50,224 nucleotides of DNA from a virus. The translations under genes were made by a program, and so were the position numbers. This document shows, piece by piece, positions 6,477 through 46,419 of the stretch (position 1 is the stretch's first letter; every line of letters starts with the position of its first letter). A model generated the notes under the pieces. It was not told where the DNA came from and did not search any database. It saw only the letters and a program-made list of their open reading frames with translations. The DNA lies in the IMG/VR virus record IMGVR_UViG_3300027759_004442, positions 1 to 50,224 of that record. One strand, written 5' to 3'.

Positions 6477-6480
6477 AGCA

Positions 6481-8192: not shown

Positions 8193-8201
8193 TATAAATA
8201 G
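8193..8201 (-). promoter_or_regulatory. Candidate late promoter motif CTATTTATA
   Basis: CTATTTATA on the minus strand in the 69-base gap before the GIY-YIG gene, 27 bases from its ATG. Late transcription of homing endonuclease genes is known from T4. Confidence 0.45.
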
Positions 8202-10361: not shown

Positions 10362-11630
10362 TTAATAAACCGTTAGTAACTCATAATTAAACTTGGGATT
10401 TACTGCGGTAATTTCTGTGGGCAATACTTTTATATTTTCAATTGATATCATTACACCGTCAAGTTCATATTCACCTCTATCGCTATCTATTAACATATCA
10501 TATAAGTTTTGAAGATTTGAAATAAATGTATTTGTATTAGAAATCTTATTAAAATCTATTGTTACTTTGATGTTATATTCTGTGGGAGTACCCACTTTGA
10601 ATATCTCTTCAAAATTATCAGCACGGAATAAATATTTATAATTTTCCCAATCCTCAGAAGTTACACGAAGTAGCTCGTTGGCAACTAAATGTTCTTTGTT
10701 GTATTGCTCTATTAGATTATTTTTATGTTCTTGTGAGTCAACCCAAATCGTTGTGAAAAACGGTTCTAAGTTATATACTGTTTGTAAGTTATAATTTTTT
10801 ACAACCAAATCAATATCCAATTTAAATAACTTTGTTTCACCATGATTGAAGTTTCCCCACTTTCTGATAAACTTCCTCATTTCTATCGAGTCTGCAACTT
10901 TTTGAAGATTGACACGCTTTTGCGCTTCGGTGTTGTTAGGATCAAACCAGTTGTTTCCTCTGGAACTTACACAAGTAAAATGATATACATTGGCAGAAAA
11001 TGTATAAAGTAGTTCTATTCCAGCGTGAACACATCTTTGCACTAAATCAGAATCTTCTCTAGCGCGACGGAATGCTGTGTCGTCACCGTCTAACATCATC
11101 CAATCATCTTTATAATATGTGTATGGAGCAAAGAAATATTCTACCAGTTCTTCTCTTTTAACTGAATTAGAAAACTTATTCCAAGCTTCCATGTCAAATT
11201 CATCTGGGTGTAGCCCAAAGTTTTTAGTAATAGTCACATTAGATTCACCGTGCAAAGGTGGTTCTACTCTCATAGCACTTAAAAATCTCCCACGTTTCAT
11301 ATGCTTGAGAATATCTGTGTCATAATGAGGGCCGATTACCATGTCACTATGAAGGTGACTTACTATATCATGCTTTGCATATTCTGTTAAAAGAGTTTTG
11401 TTACGTTGATATCCTATTGGCATTGATAACGTGTTGTTAATAATGCACAAATCATGAAATTCTTTCTGTTGTTCTACCAGATAGTCAAGACTGTTTTCAT
11501 TATCGGCATCAATGAAAACAATTATCTGATGGGTTTTGTTGTCAAGATTTGTCTTTAGCGAGTGAAGCAATAACTTAGTATATTCTAAATTATTTACGCC
11601 CATGCTGATTGTAAACGTTATATTTTGCAT
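10362..11630 (-). CDS. Family 2-type glycosyltransferase with an extra C-terminal domain
   Basis: 422 residues. The N-terminal 250 residues are a GT-A fold: FTISMGVNN start, IIVFIDADN, the HSDMV metal-binding acidic motif, and WMMLDGDDTAFRRAREDSDL near the acceptor/base region. The C-terminal 130 residues (YNIKVTIDFNKISN...) are shared with the glycosyltransferase at 20484-21500 but not with ordinary GT2 enzymes. The donor sugar is not predictable. The start overlaps the stop of the epimerase-like gene at 11618 by 13 bases, so expression is coupled. It probably adds one residue of the phage-specified glycan. Confidence 0.8.
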   Translation of the reverse strand: MQNITFTISMGVNNLEYTKLLLHSLKTNLDNKTHQIIVFIDADNENSLDYLVEQQKEFHDLCIINNTLSMPIGYQRNKTLLTEYAKHDIVSHLHSDMVIGPHYDTDILKHMKRGRFLSAMRVEPPLHGESNVTITKNFGLHPDEFDMEAWNKFSNSVKREELVEYFFAPYTYYKDDWMMLDGDDTAFRRAREDSDLVQRCVHAGIELLYTFSANVYHFTCVSSRGNNWFDPNNTEAQKRVNLQKVADSIEMRKFIRKWGNFNHGETKLFKLDIDLVVKNYNLQTVYNLEPFFTTIWVDSQEHKNNLIEQYNKEHLVANELLRVTSEDWENYKYLFRADNFEEIFKVGTPTEYNIKVTIDFNKISNTNTFISNLQNLYDMLIDSDRGEYELDGVMISIENIKVLPTEITAVNPKFNYELLTVY

Positions 11631-34286: not shown

Positions 34287-34456
34287 TATCGGTAATCCTC
34301 ATAGTCATACTCCTCGTAGGGAGCAAGTTCGTCGTCAGAAGGAATAATTTCATCAAGTCGATTCTTTGCCGTCTTTCGTGGTTCCTTCACAGGGTCTTCA
34401 TCGCGCTTGGTACGCTTACGATCCCACTTGTTCTGGTCCTTATATGTTCGTCCCAT
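34286..34456 (-). CDS. Small highly charged protein (MGRTYKD type)
   Basis: 56 residues from the ATG at 34456. Begins MGRTYKDQNKWDRKRTKRDE and ends with an acidic Tyr-rich tail (EEYDYEDYR), so it is basic at one end and acidic at the other and probably disordered. The same N-terminus is common in small phage proteins of unknown function. The last 17 bases of the GIY-YIG gene upstream overlap its start codon and first codons, so its ribosome binding site now lies inside the homing endonuclease gene. Confidence 0.6.
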   Translation of the reverse strand: MGRTYKDQNKWDRKRTKRDEDPVKEPRKTAKNRLDEIIPSDDELAPYEEYDYEDYR

Positions 34457-34934
34457 TTGTTTCTTGTTCCTCTTGAGTTTGTTGTTTTCTAGTTTGCCAC
34501 CCACGTAGGGCGGCTTGTTTACATTTTTCTCTAAATTCTGGACTACTTGCCGTTTTCTTCCTCAACTCCGAAACCTTTTTTCTATTCTCGTCGCTTTCGT
34601 AATACCGTTTTAATCCTTTACTAAGTTTCTGTCGGTATTCTTTAGTAAACAATTGGCCACCGGTCCCATCTCCTCCCTCAGTGAGATTCACTAAACACCC
34701 GGTTCCAATATCTCTTCTACCGTACTGTTTAATTAATTCCTTTTCTTTTTCACATGCGAGTTCAGGAGACATACTTTCATACAGATATTTGATTTCATAT
34801 CCATGTTTTTTCTTTATGTTGTGCCACCATTTATTTCTGTTTGAAATATCTCTAGCTCGTTTACCTCTACCTTTACCGATGTAGAAGGGAACTTCAGAGC
34901 CGGGGATGTAGTGTCCATATACATAATAATCCAT
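34440..34934 (-). CDS. GIY-YIG homing endonuclease (second)
   Basis: 164 residues from the ATG at 34934, where homology begins (MDYYVYGHYIPGSEVPFYIG); the in-frame upstream ATG at 34997 would run through a structured RNA element. The nuclease domain carries the YVYG...FYIGKGRGKRARD version of GIY-YIG, then the Glu of KEKELIKQYGRRD and NLTEGGDGT. The C-terminal part is a Lys/Arg-rich helical DNA-binding tail without NUMOD repeats. It is clearly related to the third GIY-YIG gene (45358-46011). The 3' end overlaps the next gene by 17 bases. An RNA element and an ATATTTATA motif lie upstream. Confidence 0.88.
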   Translation of the reverse strand: MDYYVYGHYIPGSEVPFYIGKGRGKRARDISNRNKWWHNIKKKHGYEIKYLYESMSPELACEKEKELIKQYGRRDIGTGCLVNLTEGGDGTGGQLFTKEYRQKLSKGLKRYYESDENRKKVSELRKKTASSPEFREKCKQAALRGWQTRKQQTQEEQETNGTNI

Positions 34935-34946
34935 TACATTTCTCAA

Positions 34947-35044
34947 ATCCCCCACTTTCCAAACCCAGGCCTGGAAAGCATGTGGGTCTGTACTCATGGG
35001 GGATTATAAGTGATATTGCTTTCCAGGCATATATAAATATCACC
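34947..35044 (-). ncRNA. Structured kissing-loop RNA upstream of a GIY-YIG gene
   Basis: In transcript order on the minus strand: hairpin 1, an 8-bp stem (35036-35043 with 35010-35017), whose loop carries GCCTGGAAAGC (35028-35018). Then a perfect 8-bp outer stem, ATCCCCCA (35004-34997) with TGGGGGAT (34954-34947). Inside that stem is hairpin 2, a 5-bp stem (34987-34983 with 34967-34963), whose loop carries GCTTTCCAGGC (34979-34969), an 11-base perfect complement of loop 1. The first gene codon follows 12 bases later. The same topology with different bases precedes the GIY-YIG gene at 45358, so it is selected structure. Whether it is a riboregulator, a ribozyme or a DNA hairpin cannot be told. 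Confidence 0.6.
35032..35040 (-). promoter_or_regulatory. Late-promoter-like motif ATATTTATA in the loop of hairpin 1
   Basis: ATATTTATA on the minus strand overlaps the 5' side of hairpin 1. If used as a promoter, the transcript would start inside the element and lack the 5' stem, which could change folding between read-through and late transcripts. Confidence 0.4.
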
Positions 35045-35116
35045 ATTTTTCTGATTTCAATCAATTCAACATTTCTTTATCTACTATAGTGTTGATGAGA
35101 ATTTATGAACTATCTA

Positions 35117-36298
35117 TTAAGACACACCCACCGTCGAACTGTGAAGGTTGTCCCACACATTACCAGTGTTCAGAATACTTGGGATGTACTTCTGAACCAA
35201 CTGCTTCATGTAGGTGCGTTCCGAATCTGCACCACCTGCATCCGAGAAGAACGGATAGATACATACCTCTGCTGCTTCTGCCAAACTAAATCCATCATAA
35301 ATCAATCCTGCCATTTCTACCGTGAGACGACTAGAGATTGAAGTGGTAACCTTCGGATCATCAGAACGAACCTGCGTGCGGGTATTTCCAGCAATTTCAG
35401 CAATTGCCCGAGCCGAATCTCCCAGAAGATTCGGGTAAGTCATGTTAATCAGCTTCAGTTCATTCTCAACCGACAGTGGTTCCATTTCAACGATTGCCGT
35501 AAAACGATCCATCATCGCTCGGTCAAGTACGCGGGTGGCGGTATACTCACTACCGATATTTGCCGTGGCGATAAATGTCACGCCCTTCGCAACCTTGATA
35601 GTCGGCGTATCAGGCTTCTCGTCAATTCGGAGATATCGCTGGTTTTCGTCAAGTACCGTAATGAGAATGTTCCATGCGTCAGAGGTTCCACGCGTCAACT
35701 CGTCAATCATGATGATAGCATTTTCTTTCTGAATGGCCTGACAGAACCATGCCTCTGCTACGAAGGTTCCCTTTTCCTTACTATAATGGGTATTACCAAT
35801 CAGAGACGAACGAGGATCGGTGGTGGCGCCAAGGTTGAAGTAAAAGAATGGACGACCATTTAATGCCTTTGCAACACTCTGGACTGCAAGAGTCTTACCA
35901 CATCCCGAAGGGCCCGTCATCATAATGTTCTTGCCACGAACCACTGAGCGCATCAGATACTTCCACTTCAAATCGGAAAGAATAAGATTGGACGGACGAA
36001 GGTCAATGCTGTCCGCCAGATATTTTTCAATATCTTCCTGCACTTCATCCGAACGATTGTCGGTAGTATCCAACGGAACTGCGTTCTTCACCAGTGCATC
36101 AAACACACTGATATCTGCGTGACGCATCTGCGTCGAGCCAGTCTTTGTGGTAATCATACGATAACACCCTCCATTCTTACGCAGGTGACGACTCTTGTGT
36201 GCTGCCAAATCAACCGTGTCACCAAACTGGTTAACTGGGGTATTTGCATCATTCAATGCCACCACGATTTCTACCTGCGTATTCTTGACCTTAGTCAC
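35117..36298 (-). CDS. MoxR/CobS-like AAA+ ATPase
   Basis: 393 residues from the GTG at 36298, chosen because the promoter -10 box ends at 36341 and CGGAGAG lies at the right distance; an upstream ATG at 36358 would precede the transcript start. Walker A is MTGPSGCGKT near residues 128-136, Walker B IIMIDEL, followed by TRGTSDAWN, sensor-1-like TFIATAN and the arginine-finger region VLDRAMMDRF. CobS/MoxR ATPases work with vWA-domain partners to remodel or insert cofactors into proteins; the vWA partner here is the adjacent gene at 36366. Cyanophages and other marine T4-like phages also carry CobS-like genes. Confidence 0.88.
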   Translation of the reverse strand: MTKVKNTQVEIVVALNDANTPVNQFGDTVDLAAHKSRHLRKNGGCYRMITTKTGSTQMRHADISVFDALVKNAVPLDTTDNRSDEVQEDIEKYLADSIDLRPSNLILSDLKWKYLMRSVVRGKNIMMTGPSGCGKTLAVQSVAKALNGRPFFYFNLGATTDPRSSLIGNTHYSKEKGTFVAEAWFCQAIQKENAIIMIDELTRGTSDAWNILITVLDENQRYLRIDEKPDTPTIKVAKGVTFIATANIGSEYTATRVLDRAMMDRFTAIVEMEPLSVENELKLINMTYPNLLGDSARAIAEIAGNTRTQVRSDDPKVTTSISSRLTVEMAGLIYDGFSLAEAAEVCIYPFFSDAGGADSERTYMKQLVQKYIPSILNTGNVWDNLHSSTVGVS

Positions 36299-36340
36299 TG
36301 TTTTACTCTCCGAAAAATGATTGATTATTGAACCTTCTGT

Positions 36341-36369
36341 AATATAACACATTCCCACCTATTTGTCAA
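36341..36369 (-). promoter_or_regulatory. sigma70-type promoter for the AAA+ gene
   Basis: TTGACA (36369-36364), 17 bases, TATATT (36346-36341), ACAGAA on the minus strand. The -35 box overlaps the last codons of the vWA gene. It places the transcript start near 36334 and so decides the GTG start of the AAA+ gene. Confidence 0.85.
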
Positions 36370-38624
36370 CCCCTAACCAGCAATCTAGAATTAAGGGTTC
36401 GTAATACTTCGGTAGCATTTTGAACATTAACTGATACCGAATCCTCCCCATACATACTCTTAAATGCTGGATATGCCGGAGTATATGTTCCTTCACTAAT
36501 AAAATAACTTAATACCTTAATTCCAGAATCACGCAACTGCTGGACCATCATTTTCGTATGTTTGGTGGCAGTTTCTCCAGCATAACTGAAGTATGCTCCG
36601 CCATACGAATTTCTCCGGCTATTCTTTTTACCCATCGCACTTTTTTCAGAATATCCAAATGAGGGTTCACCGTCACTGAAATTAATGAAGTATACATCAT
36701 GCGTATCCTTACATTCCATAATAAGGTCCATCGTTGCCTTAAAACACAATCCTTCTGGCGTTGCTCCAGCAGGTTGCAGCACTCGCATATACCTAAGAAA
36801 CCGTGACAGTTGATCACGCCGAGAATCATATACGACCGATACAATTGGCATATCGTTGCCACCGCGAATAGATACCACGGTATCCACATTACGGAGTTTC
36901 GAACCAACATAGGCCAGTGCAACTGCCACCGACCGAACCTTGTCCCACTTTCTTCCACTCATAGAACCCGACGCATCCAATGTAAGATGCAACATGGCGG
37001 GTTTATGAATATCGGTGCGAGACTTCTGAAACACTGAAGTAATATCCATACCCAACTGTGCCAGCAACCGTCGATCCAATCCACCCTGCGGCAATCTCGT
37101 CTGCTTAGTAATCATTGGATCGTTGCGAACCTGCAACCGATGAACTAGAATTTGTCCCATACGCTTTCCTGCCGCAATGGATGCGTCAGATCGGTCATCA
37201 TTAAGGTCGCGTTCCCATCCATACCGTTTGAAAATAAACCAATCTTGGTTCATAAGTTCGTCTGTGATTTTCCTAGTAACCATGCACTTACCGAACGGAA
37301 CACCTTCACCGGCAATATCGACCATCATGGCATCTGCTTCTTCCAAGGCAGTTACTGCGTCCGCATCATTCTTGGACAATTTCTTTTTCTTGATATCGCC
37401 CTCCAACACTTTCTTAGCAGTTTCCAATTCCTTCCGTGCCGCCTTTTCGTTAAACTTACCGTCCACTTCAACCTGCTTACTACCCTTGCCCTTTGTATCC
37501 TTCTCAACAGGAACGGGCTCCATATCATCCGTGCCAGGCGCACCATCAAGGTCTGGCAGTCCATCAAGTGCCGACGACTTTTGCTGGATAATATCATTCA
37601 TAGGATTCTGCGAAGGTTCCTTATTGGGTTCATAAGTAACCATACCCACATACTTTAGAATATGTGCATACAATACATTTGCTTCCTTCCACAACATTGG
37701 CATAGACTCATACGTAGGTTCTGTCAGCCATGCCGGACGAGGAGTAGTCTGGTTCTTCAGGCCGGAGTCGCCGAACACATCGTACATAATCTGCTTATCG
37801 TATTTCGGACTGACACGATCAATCGTATTTAAATCCATACGATTAATCAATGCTCGGAGACCAGGCATTGCGTCGAAGTCTGCGGCAGGATGAATACAAT
37901 ACAACAAACGAATGATATAATTTTCTACCGTCAGTTCACGAAACTTGGGATTGAACCGAAGATTCTTTCCCATTTCTTTTGTATAAAAATACTTGTTATA
38001 CAATGCCTGATAATAAGGGCGGTATCCCATTGCATTCTTATACACATAGTTATCAATGCGCCGATCTTCCAAAATATTCATCAAGAATCGAAGATCGTCC
38101 AATACCTGCAATGATGCCTTCCAATACGGAGACTCTTCATCAAGATACATGCCAATCTTTGCCGGATAATCGGGCAGCAACTTTACAATATCGGGATGGA
38201 GAATATCGGTAAAAACATTTCCAGACTTTGCTTCAATTGCCTGTGTGCCCGTATTCCAATATGTATGTAGATTCTTAAACCGCATCGGATCTTCCACCGA
38301 ACGCTTTAGAGTCTGCAACAGTGAGAAATCAGACAATAGGATATGACTACCCTCATGTAATGCCAATCCAACCATTACATCGAACTTATCAATATCTTCG
38401 TCGGCGGAAATAATGACCTGTGTACCATCCGTATACGATTCCTTTCCACTGGAAAAATGTACGGGCACATTCTTCCCGCTCAGAATTGATACGAAATTGG
38501 CAATACCACGGCGTACGGCACTGAGTCTGGTGATACGCTGGAGATCGGTTTTCGGCTCATCTGGAGCGTTATCAAACAGGTCGTCATCAAGCCAGTAACT
38601 AGAGTGTTGGGTAGTCTTAATCAT
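36366..38624 (-). CDS. vWA-domain protein with metallopeptidase-like N-terminus (CobT/DUF2201-like)
   Basis: 752 residues. Residues 85-100 have LALHEGSHILLSDF, where His90-Glu91-x-x-His94 is a zinc-peptidase-type motif as in DUF2201-like proteins. Residues about 360-430 are low complexity and charged (KKKKLSKNDADAV). The vWA domain begins near residue 545, with the MIDAS motif DASGSMSG at 550-557 and NFSDGEPSFG further on; a QPAGATPEG threonine supplies the third MIDAS element. With the AAA+ gene downstream it forms a CobS/CobT- or MoxR/CoxE-type pair. Substrate unknown: possibly a host or phage protein complex, or an anti-defence role. Each gene of the pair has its own promoter. Confidence 0.82.
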   Translation of the reverse strand: MIKTTQHSSYWLDDDLFDNAPDEPKTDLQRITRLSAVRRGIANFVSILSGKNVPVHFSSGKESYTDGTQVIISADEDIDKFDVMVGLALHEGSHILLSDFSLLQTLKRSVEDPMRFKNLHTYWNTGTQAIEAKSGNVFTDILHPDIVKLLPDYPAKIGMYLDEESPYWKASLQVLDDLRFLMNILEDRRIDNYVYKNAMGYRPYYQALYNKYFYTKEMGKNLRFNPKFRELTVENYIIRLLYCIHPAADFDAMPGLRALINRMDLNTIDRVSPKYDKQIMYDVFGDSGLKNQTTPRPAWLTEPTYESMPMLWKEANVLYAHILKYVGMVTYEPNKEPSQNPMNDIIQQKSSALDGLPDLDGAPGTDDMEPVPVEKDTKGKGSKQVEVDGKFNEKAARKELETAKKVLEGDIKKKKLSKNDADAVTALEEADAMMVDIAGEGVPFGKCMVTRKITDELMNQDWFIFKRYGWERDLNDDRSDASIAAGKRMGQILVHRLQVRNDPMITKQTRLPQGGLDRRLLAQLGMDITSVFQKSRTDIHKPAMLHLTLDASGSMSGRKWDKVRSVAVALAYVGSKLRNVDTVVSIRGGNDMPIVSVVYDSRRDQLSRFLRYMRVLQPAGATPEGLCFKATMDLIMECKDTHDVYFINFSDGEPSFGYSEKSAMGKKNSRRNSYGGAYFSYAGETATKHTKMMVQQLRDSGIKVLSYFISEGTYTPAYPAFKSMYGEDSVSVNVQNATEVLRTLNSRLLVRG

Positions 38625-38660
38625 TGTCCGAGTTAAAGAGGTTATTTTTCATCATACTTA

Positions 38661-38689
38661 AATATAACACAATACCCCACCTTTGTCAA
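38661..38689 (-). promoter_or_regulatory. sigma70-type promoter for the vWA gene
   Basis: TTGACA (38689-38684), 17 bases, TATATT (38666-38661), then TAAGTATG on the minus strand, 37 bases before the ATG. The spacer GGTGGGGTATTGTGT is shared with the promoter at 39732, so the two are recent copies. Confidence 0.85.
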
Positions 38690-38720
38690 GGGGGGTATTT
38701 TAAATACTATATAATAGGTA

Positions 38721-38948
38721 TTATTTGTATTTCCTAATAATTTCAAAGATTTTCTTTGTATCGGTTAATTTAATCTCGCCACCAATTGATACGGTAGCAA
38801 TCGTAAATCCGTGTTTTGCCATATACTTTTCCTTGACACGCTTTCCATTTACCTTATCCAAGTATATCCACGGATAATTTCCAATGTAAGTAGTGTCTAT
38901 GTCAATTGCCAGTAGACGACGATAGAGTTTGTATAATGGGTCTATCAT
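38721..38948 (-). CDS. Small conserved phage protein, 75 residues
   Basis: PWIYLDKVNGKRVKEKY, then HGFTIATVSIG and KKIFEIIRKYK match a small protein widespread in myoviruses and other phages, with no known function. It looks like an alpha/beta fold. It ends the transcript driven by the promoter at 39732 and lies upstream of the vWA promoter. Start: ATG at 38948 after a 9-base gap. Confidence 0.65.
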   Translation of the reverse strand: MIDPLYKLYRRLLAIDIDTTYIGNYPWIYLDKVNGKRVKEKYMAKHGFTIATVSIGGEIKLTDTKKIFEIIRKYK

Positions 38949-38957
38949 TTGTATTTC

Positions 38958-39182
38958 CTAAGATTGTAAGAGGTAAGCGTTCCATTCGTCTTCTACATAT
39001 TCTTCAACATATGGGCGTATGAACTCATGCTTACCGTAATACCATTCTTTATTTACATTAAGCATAATGTTTGCTTTTTCTAACGAGGCAGGAAAATCAC
39101 ATCCTCCTTCGTACCCATTAATCACAATCATTTTATCTTGGTCTAACTCTCGGAGTTTGGTAATCAGTTCACTAACTTTCAT
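38958..39182 (-). CDS. Small conserved phage protein (VNGYEGG type), 74 residues
   Basis: Start at the ATG at 39182, which overlaps the upstream stop as ATGA. MKVSELITKLRELDQDKMIVINGYEGGCDFPAS is typical of a short phage and prophage protein (an N-terminal helix, then a I-x-x-NGYEGG strand-turn) of unknown function. The C-terminus is acidic. Co-transcribed with the coiled-coil gene. Confidence 0.62.
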   Translation of the reverse strand: MKVSELITKLRELDQDKMIVINGYEGGCDFPASLEKANIMLNVNKEWYYGKHEFIRPYVEEYVEDEWNAYLLQS

Positions 39183-39703
39183 GAACACCTCGCTCTGGTA
39201 TCTTCCCATGTTTCTCTAATATTCTTACTGGCTTGCCGCACCTTATTTACCACATAGATATCATGATAACTGTTTTCTAGTTCCTGTGCCGCTTCAATCA
39301 ATGGAACCAATGATTCGTTGTATGCACGTAATCGACTGGCGTGCACGGCTGCCGCTTCGTATTTCATCTTCCATTCATCTCGTTCGGCACGAAGGTCGGC
39401 CACGCTGACATGTGTATCATCATCTTCAAAATAGTTGTTTGTCTCATCCATATTGTTTTCTATTGCATGATTAATCAGTTCCCTATCTTCTTCTGTCATA
39501 CCTTGCTCCAATACATCTCTATTAATACTATAACACACCTCATCCAAGACTGTTCCGACTTCTGTTATATATTTGTTGACGTAAAAGTCATAGCAACCAA
39601 ATGACTTCATATGTTCCATTTCATCGGGCGTCATATGTGTGCCTTGCTTAAGCACATGTCTATATTCAAATCTATTTGTATCTTTAAAATAATATATCGT
39701 CAT
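39179..39703 (-). CDS. Coiled-coil protein with a shared DDTHVSVADLRAERDEW block
   Basis: 174 residues. The N-terminus (TIYYFKDTNRFEYRHVLKQG) is compact; the C-terminal 90 residues are a coiled coil. The block FEDDDTHVSVADLRAERD, identical in the gene at 39780, is encoded by a 51-base direct repeat. RAYNESLVPLIEAAQELENS is a common phage coiled-coil tail. Function unknown; these look like modules swapped by recombination. Confidence 0.6.
   Translation of the reverse strand: MTIYYFKDTNRFEYRHVLKQGTHMTPDEMEHMKSFGCYDFYVNKYITEVGTVLDEVCYSINRDVLEQGMTEEDRELINHAIENNMDETNNYFEDDDTHVSVADLRAERDEWKMKYEAAAVHASRLRAYNESLVPLIEAAQELENSYHDIYVVNKVRQASKNIRETWEDTRARCS
39384..39434. repeat. 51-bp direct repeat, copy 1
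   Basis: Identical over 51 bases to 39928-39978. It encodes the YFEDDDTHVSVADLRAER block in two neighbouring genes and shows recent duplication or recombination. Confidence 0.85.
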
Positions 39704-39731
39704 AAAAGTTTCTCCTTAAGAGTATATCTTA

Positions 39732-39760
39732 AATATAACACAATACCCCACCGTTGTCAA
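39732..39760 (-). promoter_or_regulatory. sigma70-type promoter for the small genes 38721-39703
   Basis: TTGACA (39760-39755), 17 bases, TATATT (39737-39732), then TAAGATATACTC on the minus strand, 29 bases before the ATG at 39703. Spacer nearly identical to the promoter at 38661. Confidence 0.85.
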
Positions 39761-39779
39761 GTAGGGTATGTATTATACA

Positions 39780-40505
39780 TTATTTAATTACTTTCTGTGG
39801 TACCTCGCTGTTGGTTGTATGACCCAGTACACCACATAGCATACGGTACTGGTCGTCTTCATACGCCGTGCCCTGCGCCCCAATGAAATCCTCTGCGGCC
39901 TCGTACACCGTAAGTAACGCATCCCGCTCGGCACGAAGGTCGGCCACGCTGACATGTGTATCATCATCTTCAAAATAGATGCCTTGCTCTCCTCGCAGTG
40001 CAGACTCTAAGGTCAGAGCTTTCTGATGCCAATCCTCGTATTTCATCTTCCATTCATCGCGTTCGGTGCGGATTTTGTCCACTTCGGTCAGAATTGCACC
40101 GATTGTCTGTGAGCGTTTCGTGAGAAAGGTCTGTAGCTCAGACTCAGCAGTCTGCGCTCGCATCTTTGCTTGGTCCCGCTGCCCCTCTGCAATAATCAAT
40201 TCATCATGCAACATCGCACGGGCAGCATGAGACTTATCCAATTCGTCCCACGCACTCTGTGCCATCTTCAACTTAATCTTGGCATCTGCTAATTCAGGCT
40301 TTAAGACTTCATTAATGTAATCATCCATCTGACCTAACTTACACTTCGTGTCCGCAAGTTCTTCCTTCATCTTATGATATTCTTGCCACGCACTTGATGC
40401 GTCAATCCTTACTGCTGCCAAATCGCTCTTAACCTTATGATATTCTTCCCACATACGGTCAATGTAATACTTGCTCGTTGGGTCAACATATCCTTGTGGG
40501 TTCAT
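39780..40505 (-). CDS. Long coiled-coil protein
   Basis: 241 residues, almost entirely helical with Ala/Glu/Lys heptads. Blocks shared with its neighbours: WDELDKSHAARAMLHDELII (also in the gene at 40516), ERDEWKMKYE and the FEDDDTHVSVADLRAERD segment (both also at 39179). No enzymatic or binding motif. It may be a structural or scaffolding-type rod, or a module that binds different partners through its unique ends. Its transcript probably continues from the block upstream, since no promoter separates it from 40516. Confidence 0.6.
   Translation of the reverse strand: MNPQGYVDPTSKYYIDRMWEEYHKVKSDLAAVRIDASSAWQEYHKMKEELADTKCKLGQMDDYINEVLKPELADAKIKLKMAQSAWDELDKSHAARAMLHDELIIAEGQRDQAKMRAQTAESELQTFLTKRSQTIGAILTEVDKIRTERDEWKMKYEDWHQKALTLESALRGEQGIYFEDDDTHVSVADLRAERDALLTVYEAAEDFIGAQGTAYEDDQYRMLCGVLGHTTNSEVPQKVIK
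39928..39978. repeat. 51-bp direct repeat, copy 2
   Basis: Identical to 39384-39434; lies in the coiled-coil gene at 39780. Confidence 0.85.
40189..40254. repeat. 66-bp direct repeat, copy 1
   Basis: Identical over 66 bases to 41018-41083, 829 bases away. Encodes the AWDELDKSHAARAMLHDELI block shared by two coiled-coil genes. Confidence 0.88.
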
Positions 40506-40515
40506 GGACTAACTT

Positions 40516-41154
40516 TCATTTTCGTGACGGTAAGTGTATAATTGTATTGTTGTACATTGTTTGACATGTATCACTCCACGATTCTCCGCTCTTAATAACT
40601 GATGCGAAGAACGCTACTGTTTTGCACAATTCTGCGCGTTCTTCTACCAGTTCACGCAGTTGTCGTTCACCTGCTGCATCTAACCTTGTACCCCGTGCAG
40701 CGGCAATTGTTTGTTCGGCGACATCTTTCCAATCACCAACTTGTAATTGTAGTTCATTGATTTGATGTTTTAGTTCTAGGTTTTCTTTTTCTAATGCCTC
40801 AAGCGCATATGATACTTCACCAAGAGCTTTGGTATGTTTGCGAATTGGAGAGGTTTCGGATTCAGGATGTGCAAACTTCTGCCCCGCTCCGTCTCCAGCA
40901 CCAATCATCGTTTCGTAGATGCGTGTTGTACAAACTGCACAATCTAATCCCGTATCTACTCCCCGCTCCGCTTTTGCCTTCTCTGCTCGCATCCTTGCTT
41001 GGTCACGTTGCCCTTCCGCAATAATCAATTCATCATGCAACATCGCACGGGCAGCATGAGACTTATCCAATTCGTCCCACGCAATGCTTGCAGACTTCTT
41101 AAGGTCTTCTAATTGCAAGTTCATATTAGCCTCGTATAGTGCTCTTTTATTCAT
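40516..41154 (-). CDS. Coiled-coil protein, second copy of the WDELDKSHAARAM module
   Basis: 212 residues. The first 70 residues contain the repeated WDELDKSHAARAMLHDELII block; the middle has a CAVCTTRIY pair that could bind zinc; the rest is coiled coil (LEKENLELKHQINELQLQ) and a basic TPR-free helix. The start ATG overlaps the upstream stop as ATGA. Its C-terminal part (AAGERQLRELVEERAELC) is unlike that of its paralogue. Function unknown. Confidence 0.6.
   Translation of the reverse strand: MNKRALYEANMNLQLEDLKKSASIAWDELDKSHAARAMLHDELIIAEGQRDQARMRAEKAKAERGVDTGLDCAVCTTRIYETMIGAGDGAGQKFAHPESETSPIRKHTKALGEVSYALEALEKENLELKHQINELQLQVGDWKDVAEQTIAAARGTRLDAAGERQLRELVEERAELCKTVAFFASVIKSGESWSDTCQTMYNNTIIHLPSRK
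41018..41083. repeat. 66-bp direct repeat, copy 2
   Basis: Identical to 40189-40254; lies near the 5' end of the coiled-coil gene at 40516. Confidence 0.88.
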
Positions 41155-41360
41155 AGATATATCTCCTTATGGTCTTCAATTGCCTTTTGCAATAATGTAA
41201 TCATATGTTCTGCTTCGTCAACTGTCAAGGGGATACGAACTTGTTCAATCCTATTACCTACCGCACCTTGTATTTGCACTAACACATATAAGTTATTATA
41301 ACTCACGCCATAATGTTCATTTTTTGTGTGGTATAATGATGTCTCATAGTTTAATCTCAT
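41151..41360 (-). CDS. Hypothetical protein, 69 residues
   Basis: Beta-rich first half (VSYNNLYVLVQIQGAVGNRIEQVRIPLT) and a C-terminal helix (DEAEHMITLLQKAIEDHKEIY). Similar compact proteins occur near replication and nucleotide genes of phages, but no family is named. It overlaps the SPOUT methyltransferase gene by 17 bases and the coiled-coil gene as ATGA. Confidence 0.55.
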   Translation of the reverse strand: MRLNYETSLYHTKNEHYGVSYNNLYVLVQIQGAVGNRIEQVRIPLTVDEAEHMITLLQKAIEDHKEIYL

Positions 41361-41976
41361 TTATATAATCCCAGCACACGATTGCCATTGCTGCACTCAC
41401 GTTGAAACTTCTGAGTACTCCGCGCTGGGGAATACTAATTCTTTCAAACTCATATTCTGGATATCCGTCATTTGCTACTTGGTCTGTAATAAGTTTTGGA
41501 ATACCATGACTCTCACTACCAAATATAAAAAGAGGTGATGGGCGTCCTTCATATGCCATCTTATAATCGTTTCCACCGAGCATATACCCACCGTGTTCAC
41601 ACAGAATAACAGAATGTGTTTTATTCAATTCCCGAAGTTCGGCGAGAATATGTTCGTCGGCGGTCATCGGGTCATCATAACTATATTGAACGATATTAAT
41701 ATAGTTTTCTGCGCCCACCGTGGACCGAGCATCAAACTTTTTGCGTCCGAAGATATAAAAGTTTTCTGCGCCCAACAGACACGCCGAACGAATCATCATT
41801 CCCACGTTCAAGCAACCAGTTATATTAATACATCCCACCGAGAAAGGAAGTCTATCAACTTGACAGATTGCCCGATTCTGTTCTAGTGTATGGTCTTTAT
41901 ATAAATCACCAACATTATAATGCTTGCTATTGGTATCCGCAATGATTTTTTTGTAATTCACCATTGGATTTTCCAT
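41344..41976 (-). CDS. SpoU/TrmH-type (SPOUT) RNA 2'-O-methyltransferase
   Basis: 210 residues with the three SpoU motifs: NITGCLNVGMMIRSACLLGAE (motif 1, with Asn and Arg), FIFGSESHGIP (motif 2, the SAM knot) and ISIPQRGVLRSFNVSAAMAIV (motif 3). Such enzymes methylate ribose 2'-O in tRNA (TrmH, TrmL) or rRNA. GGAG lies 7 bases before the ATG. A phage copy could modify phage or host tRNA or mask an RNA from host cleavage. No tRNA gene is present in the window. Residue order and spacing are normal for the family, so activity is likely. Confidence 0.88.
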   Translation of the reverse strand: MENPMVNYKKIIADTNSKHYNVGDLYKDHTLEQNRAICQVDRLPFSVGCINITGCLNVGMMIRSACLLGAENFYIFGRKKFDARSTVGAENYINIVQYSYDDPMTADEHILAELRELNKTHSVILCEHGGYMLGGNDYKMAYEGRPSPLFIFGSESHGIPKLITDQVANDGYPEYEFERISIPQRGVLRSFNVSAAMAIVCWDYINEIKL

Positions 41977-41978
41977 AT

Positions 41979-42101
41979 TTACTCCGTTACTACATTTAGG
42001 ACGGGAAGAAATACAACATCTTCAGTTGTTGTATAATACAATGAGGCACTAGTAATTGTTGTTAGTTCCTGTTGGTGAAACTGATACCAAGGTTGTTTCA
42101 T
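41979..42101 (-). CDS. Small hypothetical protein, 40 residues
   Basis: The ATG at 42101 overlaps the upstream stop (TAATG) and the TAA is 2 bases before the SPOUT methyltransferase start. Aromatic N-terminus (KQPWYQFHQQE), then a Thr/Ser-rich stretch. GGAG (AAGGAG) precedes the start. Function unknown. Confidence 0.55.
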   Translation of the reverse strand: MKQPWYQFHQQELTTITSASLYYTTTEDVVFLPVLNVVTE

Positions 42102-42280
42102 TACTTCTCCTTACTAGGTTCTCTCACTTCAATCACATCATTTGCAGACACCTTTCCATATCGTGGCGTGATGTAGTATTCACCATATGTATTAGTGTCA
42201 ATTACGAGTTTGATACATACATCAACCACAACTTCACCATTGTTAGCACGGTTAAAAAACATAATCCACGGAGTATTCAT
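42101..42280 (-). CDS. Small hypothetical beta-rich protein, 59 residues
   Basis: Starts MNTPWIMFFN, followed by two or three strands (GEVVVDVCIKLVIDTN, GEYYITPRYGKV) and a charged tail (VREPSKEK). Overlaps the next gene by one base. The preceding bases are AT-rich without a clear ribosome binding site. Function unknown. Confidence 0.55.
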   Translation of the reverse strand: MNTPWIMFFNRANNGEVVVDVCIKLVIDTNTYGEYYITPRYGKVSANDVIEVREPSKEK

Positions 42281-42289
42281 AATTATTTT

Positions 42290-42739
42290 TTAGTATGTTT
42301 TAGAAAAGGTTCCAGTATCCAACAAGTCATCCACGCACTCCAAACAAAAGTTACTACCATTCCACCAATGCCAACAAAACATAATAGTATGCTTGGTATC
42401 TCTATTATAATGATACCCTATAGTGGCGGTATTCGGTTTCTCACACAACGTGCAGTGTCTAATCGGTAAATCTAATTGGTGAATATATTCTTTAATGCAA
42501 TTCCTGCACCATGATTTGGACGACCTGATAACAAAATTATCATACACATCTTTATATCCCAACGGATGTGTACCCGTTCTCCGTTTTACATATGCACCAT
42601 AGTCGTCAGGAATTTTACATTTGCAAGAATGACAACGAGGGGGAACAAAGAATACATACAGTTTCCTTTTCCACGCACGAAGTTGATATCGTGTAGGAAT
42701 CCACTTCGGAATTTTAATGGTGATGTCTCTGGTGTTCAT
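42290..42739 (-). CDS. Cysteine-rich multi-zinc-ribbon protein
   Basis: 149 residues with at least three CxxC-type pairs: RCHSCKCK, WCRNC, HCTLC and, after an aromatic/His stretch (IMFCWHWWNGSNFCLEC), a fourth. Likely binds two or three zinc ions and resembles treble-clef nucleic-acid-binding or HNH-like proteins, but no catalytic His-Asn pair is evident. It is the first gene after the promoter at 42769. Function unknown. Confidence 0.6.
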   Translation of the reverse strand: MNTRDITIKIPKWIPTRYQLRAWKRKLYVFFVPPRCHSCKCKIPDDYGAYVKRRTGTHPLGYKDVYDNFVIRSSKSWCRNCIKEYIHQLDLPIRHCTLCEKPNTATIGYHYNRDTKHTIMFCWHWWNGSNFCLECVDDLLDTGTFSKTY

Positions 42740-42768
42740 TCAAAAATCCCCCATGATGAGTATACTTA

Positions 42769-42797
42769 AATATACACTATCACAGGGGATTTGTCAA
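42769..42797 (-). promoter_or_regulatory. sigma70-type promoter
   Basis: TTGACA (42797-42792), 17 bases, TATATT (42774-42769), TAAGTATACTC on the minus strand, about 30 bases before the ATG at 42739. The downstream 11 bases are the same as at 46808. Confidence 0.85.
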
Positions 42798-42808
42798 GGG
42801 GGGCTGTA

Positions 42809-43135
42809 TTATATACTATTTAATTTAAAACAATCAAATCCCATAAACCCATATGCTATTCTAAAGTATGGATAAGTAAGTTTATCAACAAAGGGTATGC
42901 AATATAAATTCTTTTTATATCCCCTAATAATAACTTCAAAGGTATCTTTTGGCGTTGCACGAGCAATAACAGGTGTTGAATCAATATTTACACCAAACAA
43001 TCTATAATTTTTATCGTGTACTATTTTATTTTCCTTTTGCACAACAATCATTAAACTATCGTAATGTACTCTGTTATACGAATATACAATCCTCACGGGT
43101 TGTACTTGTAATAATACTGCCAATAGCAAATTCAT
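42809..43135 (-). CDS. Small exported-type hypothetical protein
   Basis: 108 residues from the ATG at 43135, which overlaps the upstream stop as TGATG. The N-terminus MNLLLAVLLQVQPVRIVYS is hydrophobic and could be a signal peptide or anchor. The rest is beta-rich with several Tyr/Phe (YRLFGVNIDSTPVIA). Follows two other secreted proteins, so it probably acts outside the cytoplasm, perhaps on the host envelope. Confidence 0.55.
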   Translation of the reverse strand: MNLLLAVLLQVQPVRIVYSYNRVHYDSLMIVVQKENKIVHDKNYRLFGVNIDSTPVIARATPKDTFEVIIRGYKKNLYCIPFVDKLTYPYFRIAYGFMGFDCFKLNSI

Positions 43136-43764
43136 CACGGGGTACATATCTCAGGTGTAATTGTACCCACTGAACCGGTCGGCATAACCCACTTCACACA
43201 CAGTTTATCTGCTGCGCGTTGCTTTGCACCACCTGAAGTTCTGGTTGCAACAGGAATGGTATTATAATATTGAACACAGTTTGGAATACTTGTTTCTCTA
43301 TTTCTTAATGCAATAGTGCCGTCATTAAATTTCATAAATGCACAGAATTGTATCGTGCCACCAGCCTGTACCGCAACCGTATCTTTTGGATATAACTCCA
43401 ATCCGGTCGGTTGATAATATACATCGGCGTTAAAAAAGTAATTTACATTTGCCGGTGAACTTGCCAATCCTCTACGCACGGATACCAAAAAAAACCGATA
43501 GGTAGTCGTATCATTCGGAATATTAAATGATACGGTATCAATCGGTTTTGTTTTGCGGTACAATACTGGCACGGTGTCTCTGGATAGAAACACCGCAACC
43601 ATTGTGCTATCCACTACTTGTGTTTGTTTCCAACTCAACTTGAAGTTAATCGTCTTGGTTGTTGTTGACAAACTAGCGATAGCCAATGGTTGTAGTGGTG
43701 CTTTCGTTTGTGCATGCAACGTTGTTGCACCCACCAATAACAACATACTAAATAACCTTTTCAT
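43135..43764 (-). CDS. Secreted protein with an Fn3-like beta domain
   Basis: 209 residues with a clear signal peptide (MKRLFSMLLLVGATTLHAQT, cleavage after HAQ). The mature part starts with an Ig/Fn3-like beta domain (FKLSWKQTQVV, then TYRFFLVSVRRGLASSPANV), and the C-terminal part has three or four cysteines. The W...VRR.L.SSP pattern is shared with the lipoprotein at 43782, so the two are paralogues. Secreted accessory proteins like this are rare in T4-like phages; a role in superinfection exclusion or surface masking is possible. Confidence 0.62.
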   Translation of the reverse strand: MKRLFSMLLLVGATTLHAQTKAPLQPLAIASLSTTTKTINFKLSWKQTQVVDSTMVAVFLSRDTVPVLYRKTKPIDTVSFNIPNDTTTYRFFLVSVRRGLASSPANVNYFFNADVYYQPTGLELYPKDTVAVQAGGTIQFCAFMKFNDGTIALRNRETSIPNCVQYYNTIPVATRTSGGAKQRAADKLCVKWVMPTGSVGTITPEICTP

Positions 43765-43781
43765 ACAACACTCCGTAAGTA

Positions 43782-44432
43782 TTACTTAACAATTAATGTA
43801 ATGTAACTATTTGTTCCAACTTTATATGAGGTTGTTCCGTTTTCTTCACGAAGGAATAAGGAACGATATGCTGCCGAATTATCAATATCAGATATACTCT
43901 TGATTGATAATACATTTGCTATTCCCCCAACAATCGGTGCTGCTGGAACTACGATGGTATCCAACTTGATTGAATCGGGTGGTGGAGGTGGACGGTCGCC
44001 GCGGCGAAGAAATAATGTGGCAACTGCGGGTGTAGATGAGAGTAATGTTCTACGTACTGACCATACCCGCGATGTTAATGTTACGGTATCGTTCACTAAA
44101 TTCAGTTTAATACTTACCGTATCTGCCAATCCGTTTGCCCGTTTTGATGTGGGCAATGGACCAGTTACCGCGTCAACTACTACTTTAGATGATATCATCG
44201 AATGTAGATAGTATTCTGGTAAACCAAATCCATCGTTCGGGGTTTTCCATGATACCCGAATTTTTAACGTGGTGTCGGCAACTCCGTTTAACTGTGCTAT
44301 TACAGCAAATGCAACCGTTTCATTTTCTGGTGATGGGGCGGGTGAAAACCCAGGCCCCACATCTACTGGTTGTGCCTCAGAGCACCCCATCAATATAAGC
44401 GATGCCATAACCACATACTTCCAATGTTTCAT
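43782..44432 (-). CDS. Lipoprotein with an Fn3-like domain
   Basis: 216 residues. Signal peptide MKHWKYVVMASLILMGCSEA contains a lipobox (LMGC), so Cys17 would be lipidated and the protein anchored in a membrane. The mature N-terminus is Pro-rich; then an Fn3-like beta domain follows (IRVSWKTPNDG, then VWSVRRTLLSSTPAV), and a Pro-rich linker (RPPPPPDSI). CTATTTATA, the candidate late motif, lies 38 bases before the ATG. Phage-encoded outer-membrane lipoproteins often block superinfection. Confidence 0.7.
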   Translation of the reverse strand: MKHWKYVVMASLILMGCSEAQPVDVGPGFSPAPSPENETVAFAVIAQLNGVADTTLKIRVSWKTPNDGFGLPEYYLHSMISSKVVVDAVTGPLPTSKRANGLADTVSIKLNLVNDTVTLTSRVWSVRRTLLSSTPAVATLFLRRGDRPPPPPDSIKLDTIVVPAAPIVGGIANVLSIKSISDIDNSAAYRSLFLREENGTTSYKVGTNSYITLIVK

Positions 44433-44470
44433 TACTATTCTCAGTTTGCATGAACATAACCATATTTACC

Positions 44471-44479
44471 TATAAATAG
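44471..44479 (-). promoter_or_regulatory. Candidate late promoter motif CTATTTATA
   Basis: CTATTTATA on the minus strand, 38 bases before the lipoprotein ATG, in the 54-base gap after the nuclease gene. Confidence 0.5.
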
Positions 44480-44486
44480 TAACTTA

Positions 44487-45443
44487 TCACTTTGTAATAC
44501 CAACAGAACACAATTCTTTTTTGTCTTTAAACTTACACCAGCGACATGCATCCTTACTGGGTGATGCGGTCTGTTCCGTAATGTACTGACCATTTTCATC
44601 AAAACATGTATTAATGAATTGCTGAAAACTGTTCCAACTCTTATTTACGGAAGGTGCTCCATTTGATGGTTCAAACTTACTAATCCGAGGAATATGATAC
44701 TGACTATTTTCCATGATAGTGCGTTTCAGAATAATAAACTCTACACTGATATTCTTTTCATCAATACCCAACTGCTGCGAAAAGAAACGCTTATACAACA
44801 ACAACTGACCAACTTTCAATGGGTCACTCTTCTGTGATTGCGTCCATCCAGACCGAGAGGTCTTCAAGTCATAGAGAACATATTTCTTGGTGGCTTCATT
44901 ATAGGTTACAATGTCGATGTATCCAATATACTGAACGCCTGGTCTGACTTCCATGTCCAAGGCATATTCAATACTATGCAACTTAGTATTAATCGTGGGG
45001 AAAATCTTCTTATAATTTTCCTGTAGATAGGTTAGAATCAAACACCCATGTTCATAGAACTCCATCAAAGTTTTCTTATCGGCAAGAAATACCTTCTCAC
45101 CATTTTCGGCAACCGTAGTATTTTCCTTAAAGAGATTGAGCAACTTCTCCTTGAATCCATCATGAAGATACATGGTCTTCGCCATCGTTTCACTTTGGTT
45201 GTACAACACATCCAACCACTCTTGAATCACCAAATGCATGCTTGTGCCGAAAACCGTATGAATAGAAGAATCATCAAGTTTATGTCCGTCAATATAGCGC
45301 AACTTCCAAGAATGGGGACAATTTGCCCACATAGTATACTGTGAATAAGAAATTCGTTTACTCTTTATATTTGAAGATATATCCCTTTGTTTGTTTGTGT
45401 TGTCCTCTGAGGACGCGCCTGATACTACTGTAACATAATCCAT
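44487..45443 (-). CDS. Cas4/RecB-like PD-(D/E)XK exonuclease
   Basis: 318 residues. ISYSQYTMWANCPHSWKLRYI is the usual N-terminus with the first Cys of the iron-sulfur cluster, FGTSMHLVIQEWL the HxxxQ/E segment, GYIDIVTYNEATKKYVLYDLKTSRSGW the GxxD...(D/E)xK nuclease core, and CRWCKFKDKKELC the C-terminal cluster cysteines. It should be a 5' or single-strand exonuclease with [4Fe-4S]. The family normally starts at about the ISYSQ residue, but here the only ATG in frame before it (45443) is inside the GIY-YIG gene, adding some 29 unrelated residues. The original start seems to have been displaced by the insertion. Confidence 0.82.
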   Translation of the reverse strand: MDYVTVVSGASSEDNTNKQRDISSNIKSKRISYSQYTMWANCPHSWKLRYIDGHKLDDSSIHTVFGTSMHLVIQEWLDVLYNQSETMAKTMYLHDGFKEKLLNLFKENTTVAENGEKVFLADKKTLMEFYEHGCLILTYLQENYKKIFPTINTKLHSIEYALDMEVRPGVQYIGYIDIVTYNEATKKYVLYDLKTSRSGWTQSQKSDPLKVGQLLLYKRFFSQQLGIDEKNISVEFIILKRTIMENSQYHIPRISKFEPSNGAPSVNKSWNSFQQFINTCFDENGQYITEQTASPSKDACRWCKFKDKKELCSVGITK

Positions 45444-46011
45444 TTTCTTTGGCTGCCTGTGTTATGGTTGTATACTCTTTAATAAAATTATCATCTAAAT
45501 CATACTGTAATATACTCTTTCCGCCCTTGTTTGTCAAGGATATTCTCATCTTTTCTACCACTTCTATTGGTCTTGGTTTTCCAATAAATGCGTTTCTTAT
45601 TTTTTCACGAACTTCTTGAGAAACAATCCTTCCTTTATTTGCTTCACTTATTTTCCTTTTATGAAATTCACTTAATGGTTTACCAATATGCGTATCGGAA
45701 ATTTTTTTACGAGATTCTGTAGAATGTCCAACAACCCCGTCGCCACCATTGGTTTGATTAACTAATACGCCAGTCTTTAAGTCTCGTCTACCATATAAGG
45801 AAATAAGTTCTACTTCTTTTTCAAGTGCGGCTTCGGATGAAAGGTTTTCGTATAATATTTTTACTTCATATCCATACTTTTTAACCACAGATTTCCAAAA
45901 ATCACTTCTGTCATACAAATGATATGCCCGTCTACCTCTACCTTTCCCTATATAAAAAGGAATATCACTGCCGAGTGTGAAGTGCGCATAAACATAAAAT
46001 CCATTCTCCAT
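45358..46011 (-). CDS. GIY-YIG homing endonuclease (third) with NUMOD repeats
   Basis: 217 residues from the ATG at 46011 (MENGFYVYAHFTLGSDIPFYIG); a further upstream ATG reads through the RNA element. The nuclease domain has YVYAH...FYIGKGRGRRA, KEVELISLYGRRD and NGGDG. The middle has NUMOD3-like repeats (GKPLSEFHKRKISEANKGR, EVREKIRNAFIGKP), and the end a NUMOD1-like HTH (ITQAAKENGLCYSSIRRVL). The first 130 residues are close to the second GIY-YIG gene. Its last 86 bases overlap the nuclease gene in another frame. It is inserted between a small gene (46183) and the exonuclease. Confidence 0.9.
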   Translation of the reverse strand: MENGFYVYAHFTLGSDIPFYIGKGRGRRAYHLYDRSDFWKSVVKKYGYEVKILYENLSSEAALEKEVELISLYGRRDLKTGVLVNQTNGGDGVVGHSTESRKKISDTHIGKPLSEFHKRKISEANKGRIVSQEVREKIRNAFIGKPRPIEVVEKMRISLTNKGGKSILQYDLDDNFIKEYTTITQAAKENGLCYSSIRRVLRGQHKQTKGYIFKYKE

Positions 46012-46033
46012 AATACTTCTCCTAAAACACAAA

Positions 46034-46130
46034 ACCCCCATTTTCAGACACAACGGTGTTAGAGGCACCGTAGGCTTACTCACAGGGGTAAATTTTTTGT
46101 ATGTGAAGACTGCCTCTAACAATCCTCACA
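46034..46130 (-). ncRNA. Structured kissing-loop RNA upstream of the third GIY-YIG gene
   Basis: Same topology as 34947-35044, with different bases. Transcript order: hairpin 1, an 8-bp stem with one G-U (46130-46123 with 46109-46102), loop with GTTAGAGGCA (46120-46111). Outer stem ACCCC (46089-46085) with GGGGT (46038-46034). Inside it is hairpin 2, a 6-bp stem ACGGTG/CACCGT (46071-46066 and 46058-46053), whose loop CCTCTAA (46065-46059) is complementary to TTAGAGG of loop 1; the full complement is 10 bases. The gene starts 23 bases later with AGGAG. Because both the base pairs and the order are kept while the sequence differs, it is a conserved structured element. Confidence 0.6.
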
Positions 46131-46132
46131 TG

Positions 46133-46141
46133 TATAAATAT
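46133..46141 (-). promoter_or_regulatory. Late-promoter-like motif ATATTTATA
   Basis: ATATTTATA on the minus strand just 5' of hairpin 1. A transcript starting here would begin at the structured element and run into the GIY-YIG gene. Confidence 0.4.
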
Positions 46142-46182
46142 CATTATGTTTTAGAAAAATTTAGTTTACTTGATTTTATTAC

Positions 46183-46419
46183 TCATTCAATACTATCCAG
46201 AATTTTAGTAAAGGTTTTTTGCATACGGGTATCATACGCATCGACAGTTGATTTATTATCCGTCTTATCCAAGATAACACGAACAACTGCCATGACCGTA
46301 TCCATGTCATTGACACGAAACTCTATTGGTCCATGATTCTCTTGCTCAATCAATATACTCATCTTGCCCGTGAATTTCAACTCCAATTCCGGCGTGGCTT
46401 CTTTCTTTTTCCGTGGCAT
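46183..46419 (-). CDS. Small hypothetical protein, 78 residues
   Basis: Starts MPRKKKEATPELELKFTGK at 46419; basic N-terminus, then a beta/alpha segment (MSILIEQENHGPIEFRVNDMDTVMAVVRVIL). Similar short proteins occur near replication genes of marine phages. It ends 172 bases before the GIY-YIG gene, and the intervening stretch is the RNA element. It starts one base after the stop of the zinc-ribbon gene. Confidence 0.55.
   Translation of the reverse strand: MPRKKKEATPELELKFTGKMSILIEQENHGPIEFRVNDMDTVMAVVRVILDKTDNKSTVDAYDTRMQKTFTKILDSIE

Follow-up and report, generated by a model that had tools for sequence, protein, structure and literature searches.

The DNA analysed here, hereafter the window, is the whole of a 50,224-nucleotide stretch (positions 1 to 50,224 of the IMG/VR virus record IMGVR_UViG_3300027759_004442), and the element in question is a structured RNA leader that precedes two of its GIY-YIG homing endonuclease genes. 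Both genes (34440-34934 and 45358-46011) lie on the minus strand and both are preceded by one common RNA architecture, in which a promoter-like TATTTATA element, a hairpin (H1), a stem (P2), a loop E-like internal loop and an inner hairpin (P3) follow one another from 5' to 3', with a U-tract, a ribosome-binding site and the start codon in turn behind the fold. A shared order of hairpins and outer stem had been noticed in the first-pass annotation and is borne out for both minus-strand leaders. The window contains exactly two instances of their core, CCCC-N3-GAGTA...GAAA-N3-GGGG, against none in 100 shuffles.

Two leaders of one architecture in the window

The leaders span 34949-35040 (copy 1) and 46035-46140 (copy 2). 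P2 takes the form CCCC.../...GGGG, the internal loop GAGUA/GAAA fits the loop E (sarcin-ricin) consensus, and the loops of H1 and P3 are mutually complementary in each leader. With these loops in square brackets, copy 2 reads TATTTATA-C-ATGTGAGGATTG[TTAGAGG]CAGTCTTCACAT-linker-CCCCTGT-GAGTA-...ACGGTG[CCTCTAA]CACCGT...-GAAA-ATGGGGG-TTTTGTGTTTTAGGAGAAG-TATT-ATG, and copy 1 reads TATTTATA-TATGC[CTGGAAA]GCAATATCAC...-CCCCCAT-GAGTA-...GC[TTTCCAG]GC...-GAAA-GTGGGGG-ATTTGAG...-ATG. The individual features are as follows.

Copy 1
35032-35039, minus strand: promoter-like octamer TATTTATA, sense-oriented
35020-35026, minus strand: H1 loop CTGGAAA, flanking stem weak; 11-12 nucleotide (nt) complement GCCTGGAAAGCA at 35017-35028
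34996-35002, minus strand: P2 5' arm CCCCCAT, extending to AATCCCCCAT
34991-34995, minus strand: GAGTA, 5' strand of the loop-E-like internal loop (core pattern)
34971-34977, minus strand: P3 loop TTTCCAG, complement of the H1 loop of this copy
34956-34959, minus strand: GAAA, 3' strand of the loop-E-like internal loop (core pattern)
34949-34955, minus strand: P2 3' arm GTGGGGG, with no U-tract behind it
34440-34934, minus strand: GIY-YIG homing endonuclease (phrog_314, E 5.6e-18)

Copy 2
46133-46140, minus strand: promoter-like octamer TATTTATA, sense-oriented
46101-46131, minus strand: H1 hairpin ATGTGAGGATTG[TTAGAGG]CAGTCTTCACAT, 7-nt loop at 46113-46119
46082-46088, minus strand: P2 5' arm CCCCTGT (core pattern, P2 pairing)
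46077-46081, minus strand: GAGTA, 5' strand of the loop-E-like internal loop (core pattern, consensus)
46053-46071, minus strand: P3 hairpin ACGGTG[CCTCTAA]CACCGT, 7-nt loop at 46059-46065, complement of the H1 loop
46042-46045, minus strand: GAAA, 3' strand of the loop-E-like internal loop (core pattern)
46035-46041, minus strand: P2 3' arm ATGGGGG (core pattern, P2 pairing)
46023-46034, minus strand: U-tract TTTTGTGTTTTA adjoining P2, 9 of 12 bases U
46016-46023, minus strand: ribosome-binding site AGGAGAAG, read from the sequence, outside the fold
45358-46011, minus strand: GIY-YIG homing endonuclease with NUMOD domains (phrog_314, E 1.4e-26)

The internal loop and the U-tract had been missed earlier, and two further details are revised. 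The loops had been described as complements of 11 and 10 bases; the complementarity stands but the length does not, the better description being 7-nt loops (UUAGAGG/CCUCUAA and CUGGAAA/UUUCCAG), since the extra complementary bases arise because the closing pairs happen to be alike in both hairpins. An 8-base-pair (bp) hairpin had been placed before each gene; the version at 34.9 kb uses bases of the promoter-like TATTTATA and thus probably lies outside the transcript from that promoter. The ATATTTATA motif reported at the 5' end of each leader is present and reads as the sense promoter-like element TATTTATA, which is found in sense orientation just upstream of a gene of the same orientation at 6 of 8 window sites.

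Further leaders and the pairing between their loops

A search of further phages, which the first-pass annotation had proposed together with a covariation test, gave nine more distinct leaders in uncultured phages, making eleven with the window pair. All eleven lie directly upstream of the start codon of a homing endonuclease gene, ten of the GIY-YIG and one of the HNH type. The leader designated L018 belongs to a relative of the copy 2 gene (75% protein identity) and has the same leader with a different yet complementary loop pair; L033, L045 (four contigs), L049 (three contigs) and L075/L078 were found by a pattern scan of viral contigs, L101/L102 by an endonuclease profile scan, and L333 by running model R1 on whole contigs. 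An AT-rich leader before the HNH gene (L238) and a GC-rich one before a GIY-YIG gene with a NUMOD1 domain (L048) were met in loci fetched for unrelated pattern matches, and these two probably come from Bacteroidetes phages. A common genomic site is occupied by copy 2 and L018, and another by L033 and L045, the other leaders being located between different genes. A TAYTTATA promoter-like motif, of which TATTTATA is the form in both window copies, stands at the edge of H1 in 9 of the 11, and in L048 and L238 a Bacteroidetes-type TTG...TAnnTTTG element was recognised by eye before H1.

A P2 of seven pairs adjoining the loop-E motif, all of them standard, is found in every leader, as are AGUA opposite GAA, the inner hairpin and, upstream, a strand able to pair with the loop of that hairpin. 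The placement of AGUA opposite GAA between two helices is that expected, from the sequence, of a loop E or sarcin-ricin (bulged-G) motif; AGUA does not vary among the 10 aligned leaders and occurs in L333 too. The complement between cognate loops is 7-12 nt long (mean 9.7) compared with a mean of 5.1 when loops of different leaders are swapped, one swapped pair reaching 10 nt (L018/L033, in which the loop 7-mer is the same). When only hairpin loops are considered, each of the eleven comes down to two 7-mers in perfect complementarity, and in most leaders these form the 7-nt loops of hairpins. Copy 1 and L101 have a weak H1, and in them the complement of 11-12 nt may pair as a simple pseudoknot; in L018 and L333, H1 is imperfect beside the loop. 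Taken by themselves the 7-nt complements in L018, L238 and L048 are insignificant (reached in 62-155 of 1000 shuffles), but the joint architecture is significant.

Covariation was assessed on six leaders in a MAFFT alignment made without structure. In these, 95.2% of cells are paired and 11 pairs have changed on both sides, which none of 500 shuffles matches, whilst sliding the partners lowers pairing to 45-52%. The two window copies, from which covariation was originally claimed, are insufficient to show it alone, but the compensatory changes are real across the eleven copies, and the secondary structure of the leader is near certain. A structure formed by the DNA, such as a cruciform or a sequence used in homing, had also been put forward, and inverted repeats are of course present on the DNA too; yet on the sense strand P2 holds 9 G-U and 0 A-C pairs across the leaders, the loop-E consensus is read on the sense strand, the promoter and ribosome-binding site are spaced as for a transcript, and the pairs covary. 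A DNA-level role is accordingly the less likely one, and together with a chance arrangement, which the descriptor rate below also opposes, it is scarcely credible. The idea that the loops mimic a homing site was rejected too: neither loop sequence recurs convincingly elsewhere in the window, where one single-mismatch match is present at 6646-6656.

A strict descriptor (P2, loop E and two hairpins with complementary 7-nt loops) was run on 6.7 Mb of real sequence, much of which came from related searches and is thus no unbiased census, and matched homing endonuclease leaders only; its chance rate is one match in 20 Mb of random sequence. Other searches gave no further members. No leader was found with model R1 in the whole records of 14 named phages with related endonucleases or a related VWA protein (one 13.7-bit match was at chance level), nor in 395 Bacteroidota genomes at E 1e-4, a scan made without a positive control. 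A nucleotide search of a phage collection with two leaders as queries returned nothing, endonuclease relatives sought in Bacteroidota genomes added no leader, the HNH relatives of L238 lack one, a genome-wide pattern scan gave 12 matches of which none had a kissing partner, and a final relaxed viral scan gave zero new members. Judged by one protein, the window phage has as its nearest named relatives Microcystis phage Mel-JY01 and an uncultured phage of 484 kb, with ~30% identity.

Not every endonuclease gene of the window has such a leader. The HNH endonuclease gene at 1636-2292 is without one (no R1 match there), and a third GIY-YIG gene (7410-8141) has a TATTTATA element at 8193-8200 followed by a short, plain, unstructured leader, which allows a natural comparison with the two structured leaders and indicates that a structured leader is not needed for such genes generally. 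On the minus strand of the region 34400-46300, six near-perfect TTGACA-17-TAT(A/G)(T/A)T promoters occur alongside the TATTTATA elements, a sequence pattern which suggests that the phage has two promoter classes, perhaps early and late. Over one TTGACA-17-TATATT promoter, before the gene at 42290-42739, lies a hairpin AAATCCCCTG...CATGGGGGATTTTTG (42741-42797) that may be an early-promoter attenuator; as a third copy of the leader it was rejected (42741-42793, 21 bits), since it overlaps that promoter and has no kissing loop. The L049 contig carries a tmRNA and a tRNA (6372-6710, minus strand, and 11268-11350, plus strand), and a second GIY-YIG gene directly behind the leader-bearing one.

The U-tract and possible attenuation

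In 10 of the 11 leaders, 7-9 of the 12 bases after P2 are U, whereas only 1 of 58 window genes has at least seven at a matching distance (p 3e-7). The arrangement that defines an intrinsic terminator or attenuator, a U-tract immediately behind a G+C-rich stem, is thus found with the stem in 11 of 11 leaders and with the tract in 10, copy 1 excepted. As this stem and tract stand between the promoter and the endonuclease gene, the reading that we favour, tentatively and at slightly less than an even chance, is that of a cis-acting 5'-leader ending in a braced intrinsic terminator which attenuates endonuclease expression. A precedent exists in T4, where intrinsic terminators lie within mobE and segF, with ~30% termination in mobE (PMC2988022).

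Computation shows the secondary structure, the covarying contact between the loops, where the promoter and U-tract lie, and that the leader is confined to homing endonuclease genes. We infer the mechanism, including start sites, actual termination, direction of control and any regulator, to be as follows. The leader would act in cis and travel with phage homing endonuclease genes. Transcription would start from a promoter belonging to the gene itself, either within H1 or a short way upstream of it; in the nascent RNA H1 would fold first, after which the P3 loop would kiss the H1 loop through seven base pairs, and P2 would close right before the U-tract to give an intrinsic terminator, which the kissing contact and the loop-E motif would brace. 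The majority of transcripts would then end at the U-tract and the remainder continue into the gene, keeping endonuclease output low, and this output would rise with any factor that blocked P2 or the kissing contact.

This attenuation model should be considered with caution, as several points weigh against it. The absence of the U-tract from copy 1, in the window itself, warns against certainty, and elsewhere the tracts are often interrupted by one G, A or C, which would weaken termination. No common alternative (antiterminator) fold was seen among the predicted folds of the leaders. Pairing of the 5' flank with the U-tract was marginally above that of swapped flanks (permutation p 0.048), so that an extended helix may form in place of the free U-tract; at this p value the helix was rejected as a firm part of the model. 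Finally, a plain terminator needs less than a conserved loop pairing.

One other possibility is that the leader stabilises the 5' end of the mRNA or aids translation, its fold forming a compact 5' end that a U-rich spacer separates from the ribosome-binding site. The site lies outside the fold in every copy, and a similar placement is known in seg43 of Aeromonas phage 25, in which a stable hairpin lies directly before an open ribosome-binding site (PMC2988022). This leaves unexplained why the G-rich 3' arm of P2 runs straight into a U-tract in nearly all copies, and the plain leader of the third GIY-YIG gene, behind the same promoter type, implies that structure is not required; we regard this role as unlikely, though worth keeping in mind. 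A riboswitch or protein-sensing leader, in which a ligand or a phage or host protein reads the kissing complex or the loop-E region and sets terminator formation, would account for an aptamer-like compact fold fused to a terminator-like stem, and proteins such as Rop bind 7-bp kissing complexes whatever their sequence. It is nonetheless a doubtful proposition, as few conserved unpaired bases exist beyond the loop-E core and there is no obvious binding pocket.

The U-tract could also release the leader as a ~100-nt small RNA acting in trans, perhaps to bind and restrain the endonuclease or to pair loop-to-loop with other leaders. Its own promoter, compact self-contained fold and U-tract ahead of the coding region fit such a role, and where two copies occur in one phage (window copies 1 and 2; L333 and L073) their loops differ and do not cross-pair, as if cross-talk were selected against, although these differences could equally be neutral compensated drift. 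The layout resembles that of type III toxin-antitoxin (ToxIN) operons, which consist of a promoter, a structured RNA, a terminator and a nuclease gene in that order. Unlike these, the leader is a single RNA unit without tandem repeats, and the downstream proteins are DNA homing endonucleases and not ToxN-type endoribonucleases; moreover, the same fold precedes GIY-YIG and HNH enzymes which have no common RNA-binding part. Release of a small RNA in trans is hence unlikely, and about as unlikely is a stand-alone noncoding RNA, freed at the U-tract to work in trans as the RNA partner or brake of the homing nuclease, with loops diversified against cross-pairing as in plasmid incompatibility. The RNA antitoxin of the type III systems is a pseudoknot (PMC5772629).

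Known systems and the control of homing endonucleases

The closest known parallels are the T4 leaders (I-TevI, I-TevII, I-TevIII and segB) and that of Aeh1 mobE, which likewise belong to phage homing endonuclease genes and place a structured leader beside a promoter (PMC2988022). In those of the I-TevI type the ribosome-binding site is sequestered in early and middle transcripts (PMC2988022), and a similar switch, hiding the site in early read-through transcripts and exposing it in late ones, had been thought plausible for the window genes. A promoter does stand beside a hairpin before a GIY-YIG gene, and the predicted accessibility of the site drops strongly in read-through transcripts of copy 2 (0.74 to 0.02) and of L333. 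No such drop is predicted in L033, L045, L049 (0.19 to 0.34), L048 or L238, the change in L018 is from 0.84 to 0.71, and the site lies downstream of the fold, outside the conserved helices, which makes this switch very improbable. Nor is the T4 late promoter TATAAATA found in sense orientation within the hairpin, the sense strand of the leader reading TATTTATA, the reverse complement of the T4 octamer. The new leader differs from the T4 and Aeh1 leaders in having its ribosome-binding site outside the fold, and in its kissing loop, loop E-like internal loop and U-tract.

In placement the nearest case is the seg43 hairpin, a very stable stem directly before the open ribosome-binding site of a GIY-YIG-type gene; as a single simple hairpin in a 44-nt gap, with no kissing partner, loop E or U-tract, it was rejected as a counterpart. 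The mobE and segF terminators of T4 also lower homing endonuclease transcripts, but are simple hairpins inside the coding region (PMC2988022). The Rfam family RF03535 (TEG147, cis-regulatory, Staphylococcus aureus) has a P2-like stem with a GAGUA/GAAA internal loop and a U-tract, but scores 27.2 bits on L018 against a gathering score of 56.1, and the matched model is without H1 or a kissing loop. Fully paired 7-nt kissing loops are a feature of ColE1 RNAI/RNAII, where they serve intermolecular antisense control of a plasmid, whereas here both loops lie in one transcript.

In Rfam 15 no family reached its gathering score at any leader, in the window or elsewhere, in agreement with the earlier statement that no described RNA family has this arrangement. 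Among these searches there was no match to HEARO, the omega RNA upstream of RuvC/HNH IscB genes, and none to the catalytic core of a known self-cleaving class; a ribozyme, which had been suggested, thus finds no favour, as the sequences give no sign of a conserved catalytic core. Full-text literature, from which most subscription papers were outside the search, held no description of such a leader. Regulated homing endonuclease leaders are already known and the new fold is a variant among them, but the best reading is that it represents a new 5'-leader RNA family of undescribed fold, apparently a natural intramolecular 7-bp kissing loop joined to a loop-E-like motif and a terminator-like stem, for which we found no description.

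A CCCC/GGGG hairpin with a GAGTA/CGAAA loop-E motif and a U-tract was also observed in an Oscillospiraceae metagenome-assembled genome (L326, 5536-5589, plus strand; 32.5 bits with R1) and in Leminorella (L327, 1261-1315, minus strand), in both directly upstream of an NYN/LabA-like gene (start MVKTAILVDGGF, recognised by eye). Neither hairpin has a kissing partner, and the two may constitute a leader RNA family of their own.

Homing endonucleases are selfish genes with the potential to do harm, and control of the expression of free-standing ones is known for a few T4-like cases only. The occurrence of a covarying leader, established here by computation, before endonuclease genes of both types, GIY-YIG and HNH, in phages that are unrelated suggests a control module that has been put to use repeatedly, transferred with the endonuclease or recruited by it. 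As the leader is small and its paired elements are clear, it is open to direct testing by compensatory changes and transcript mapping.

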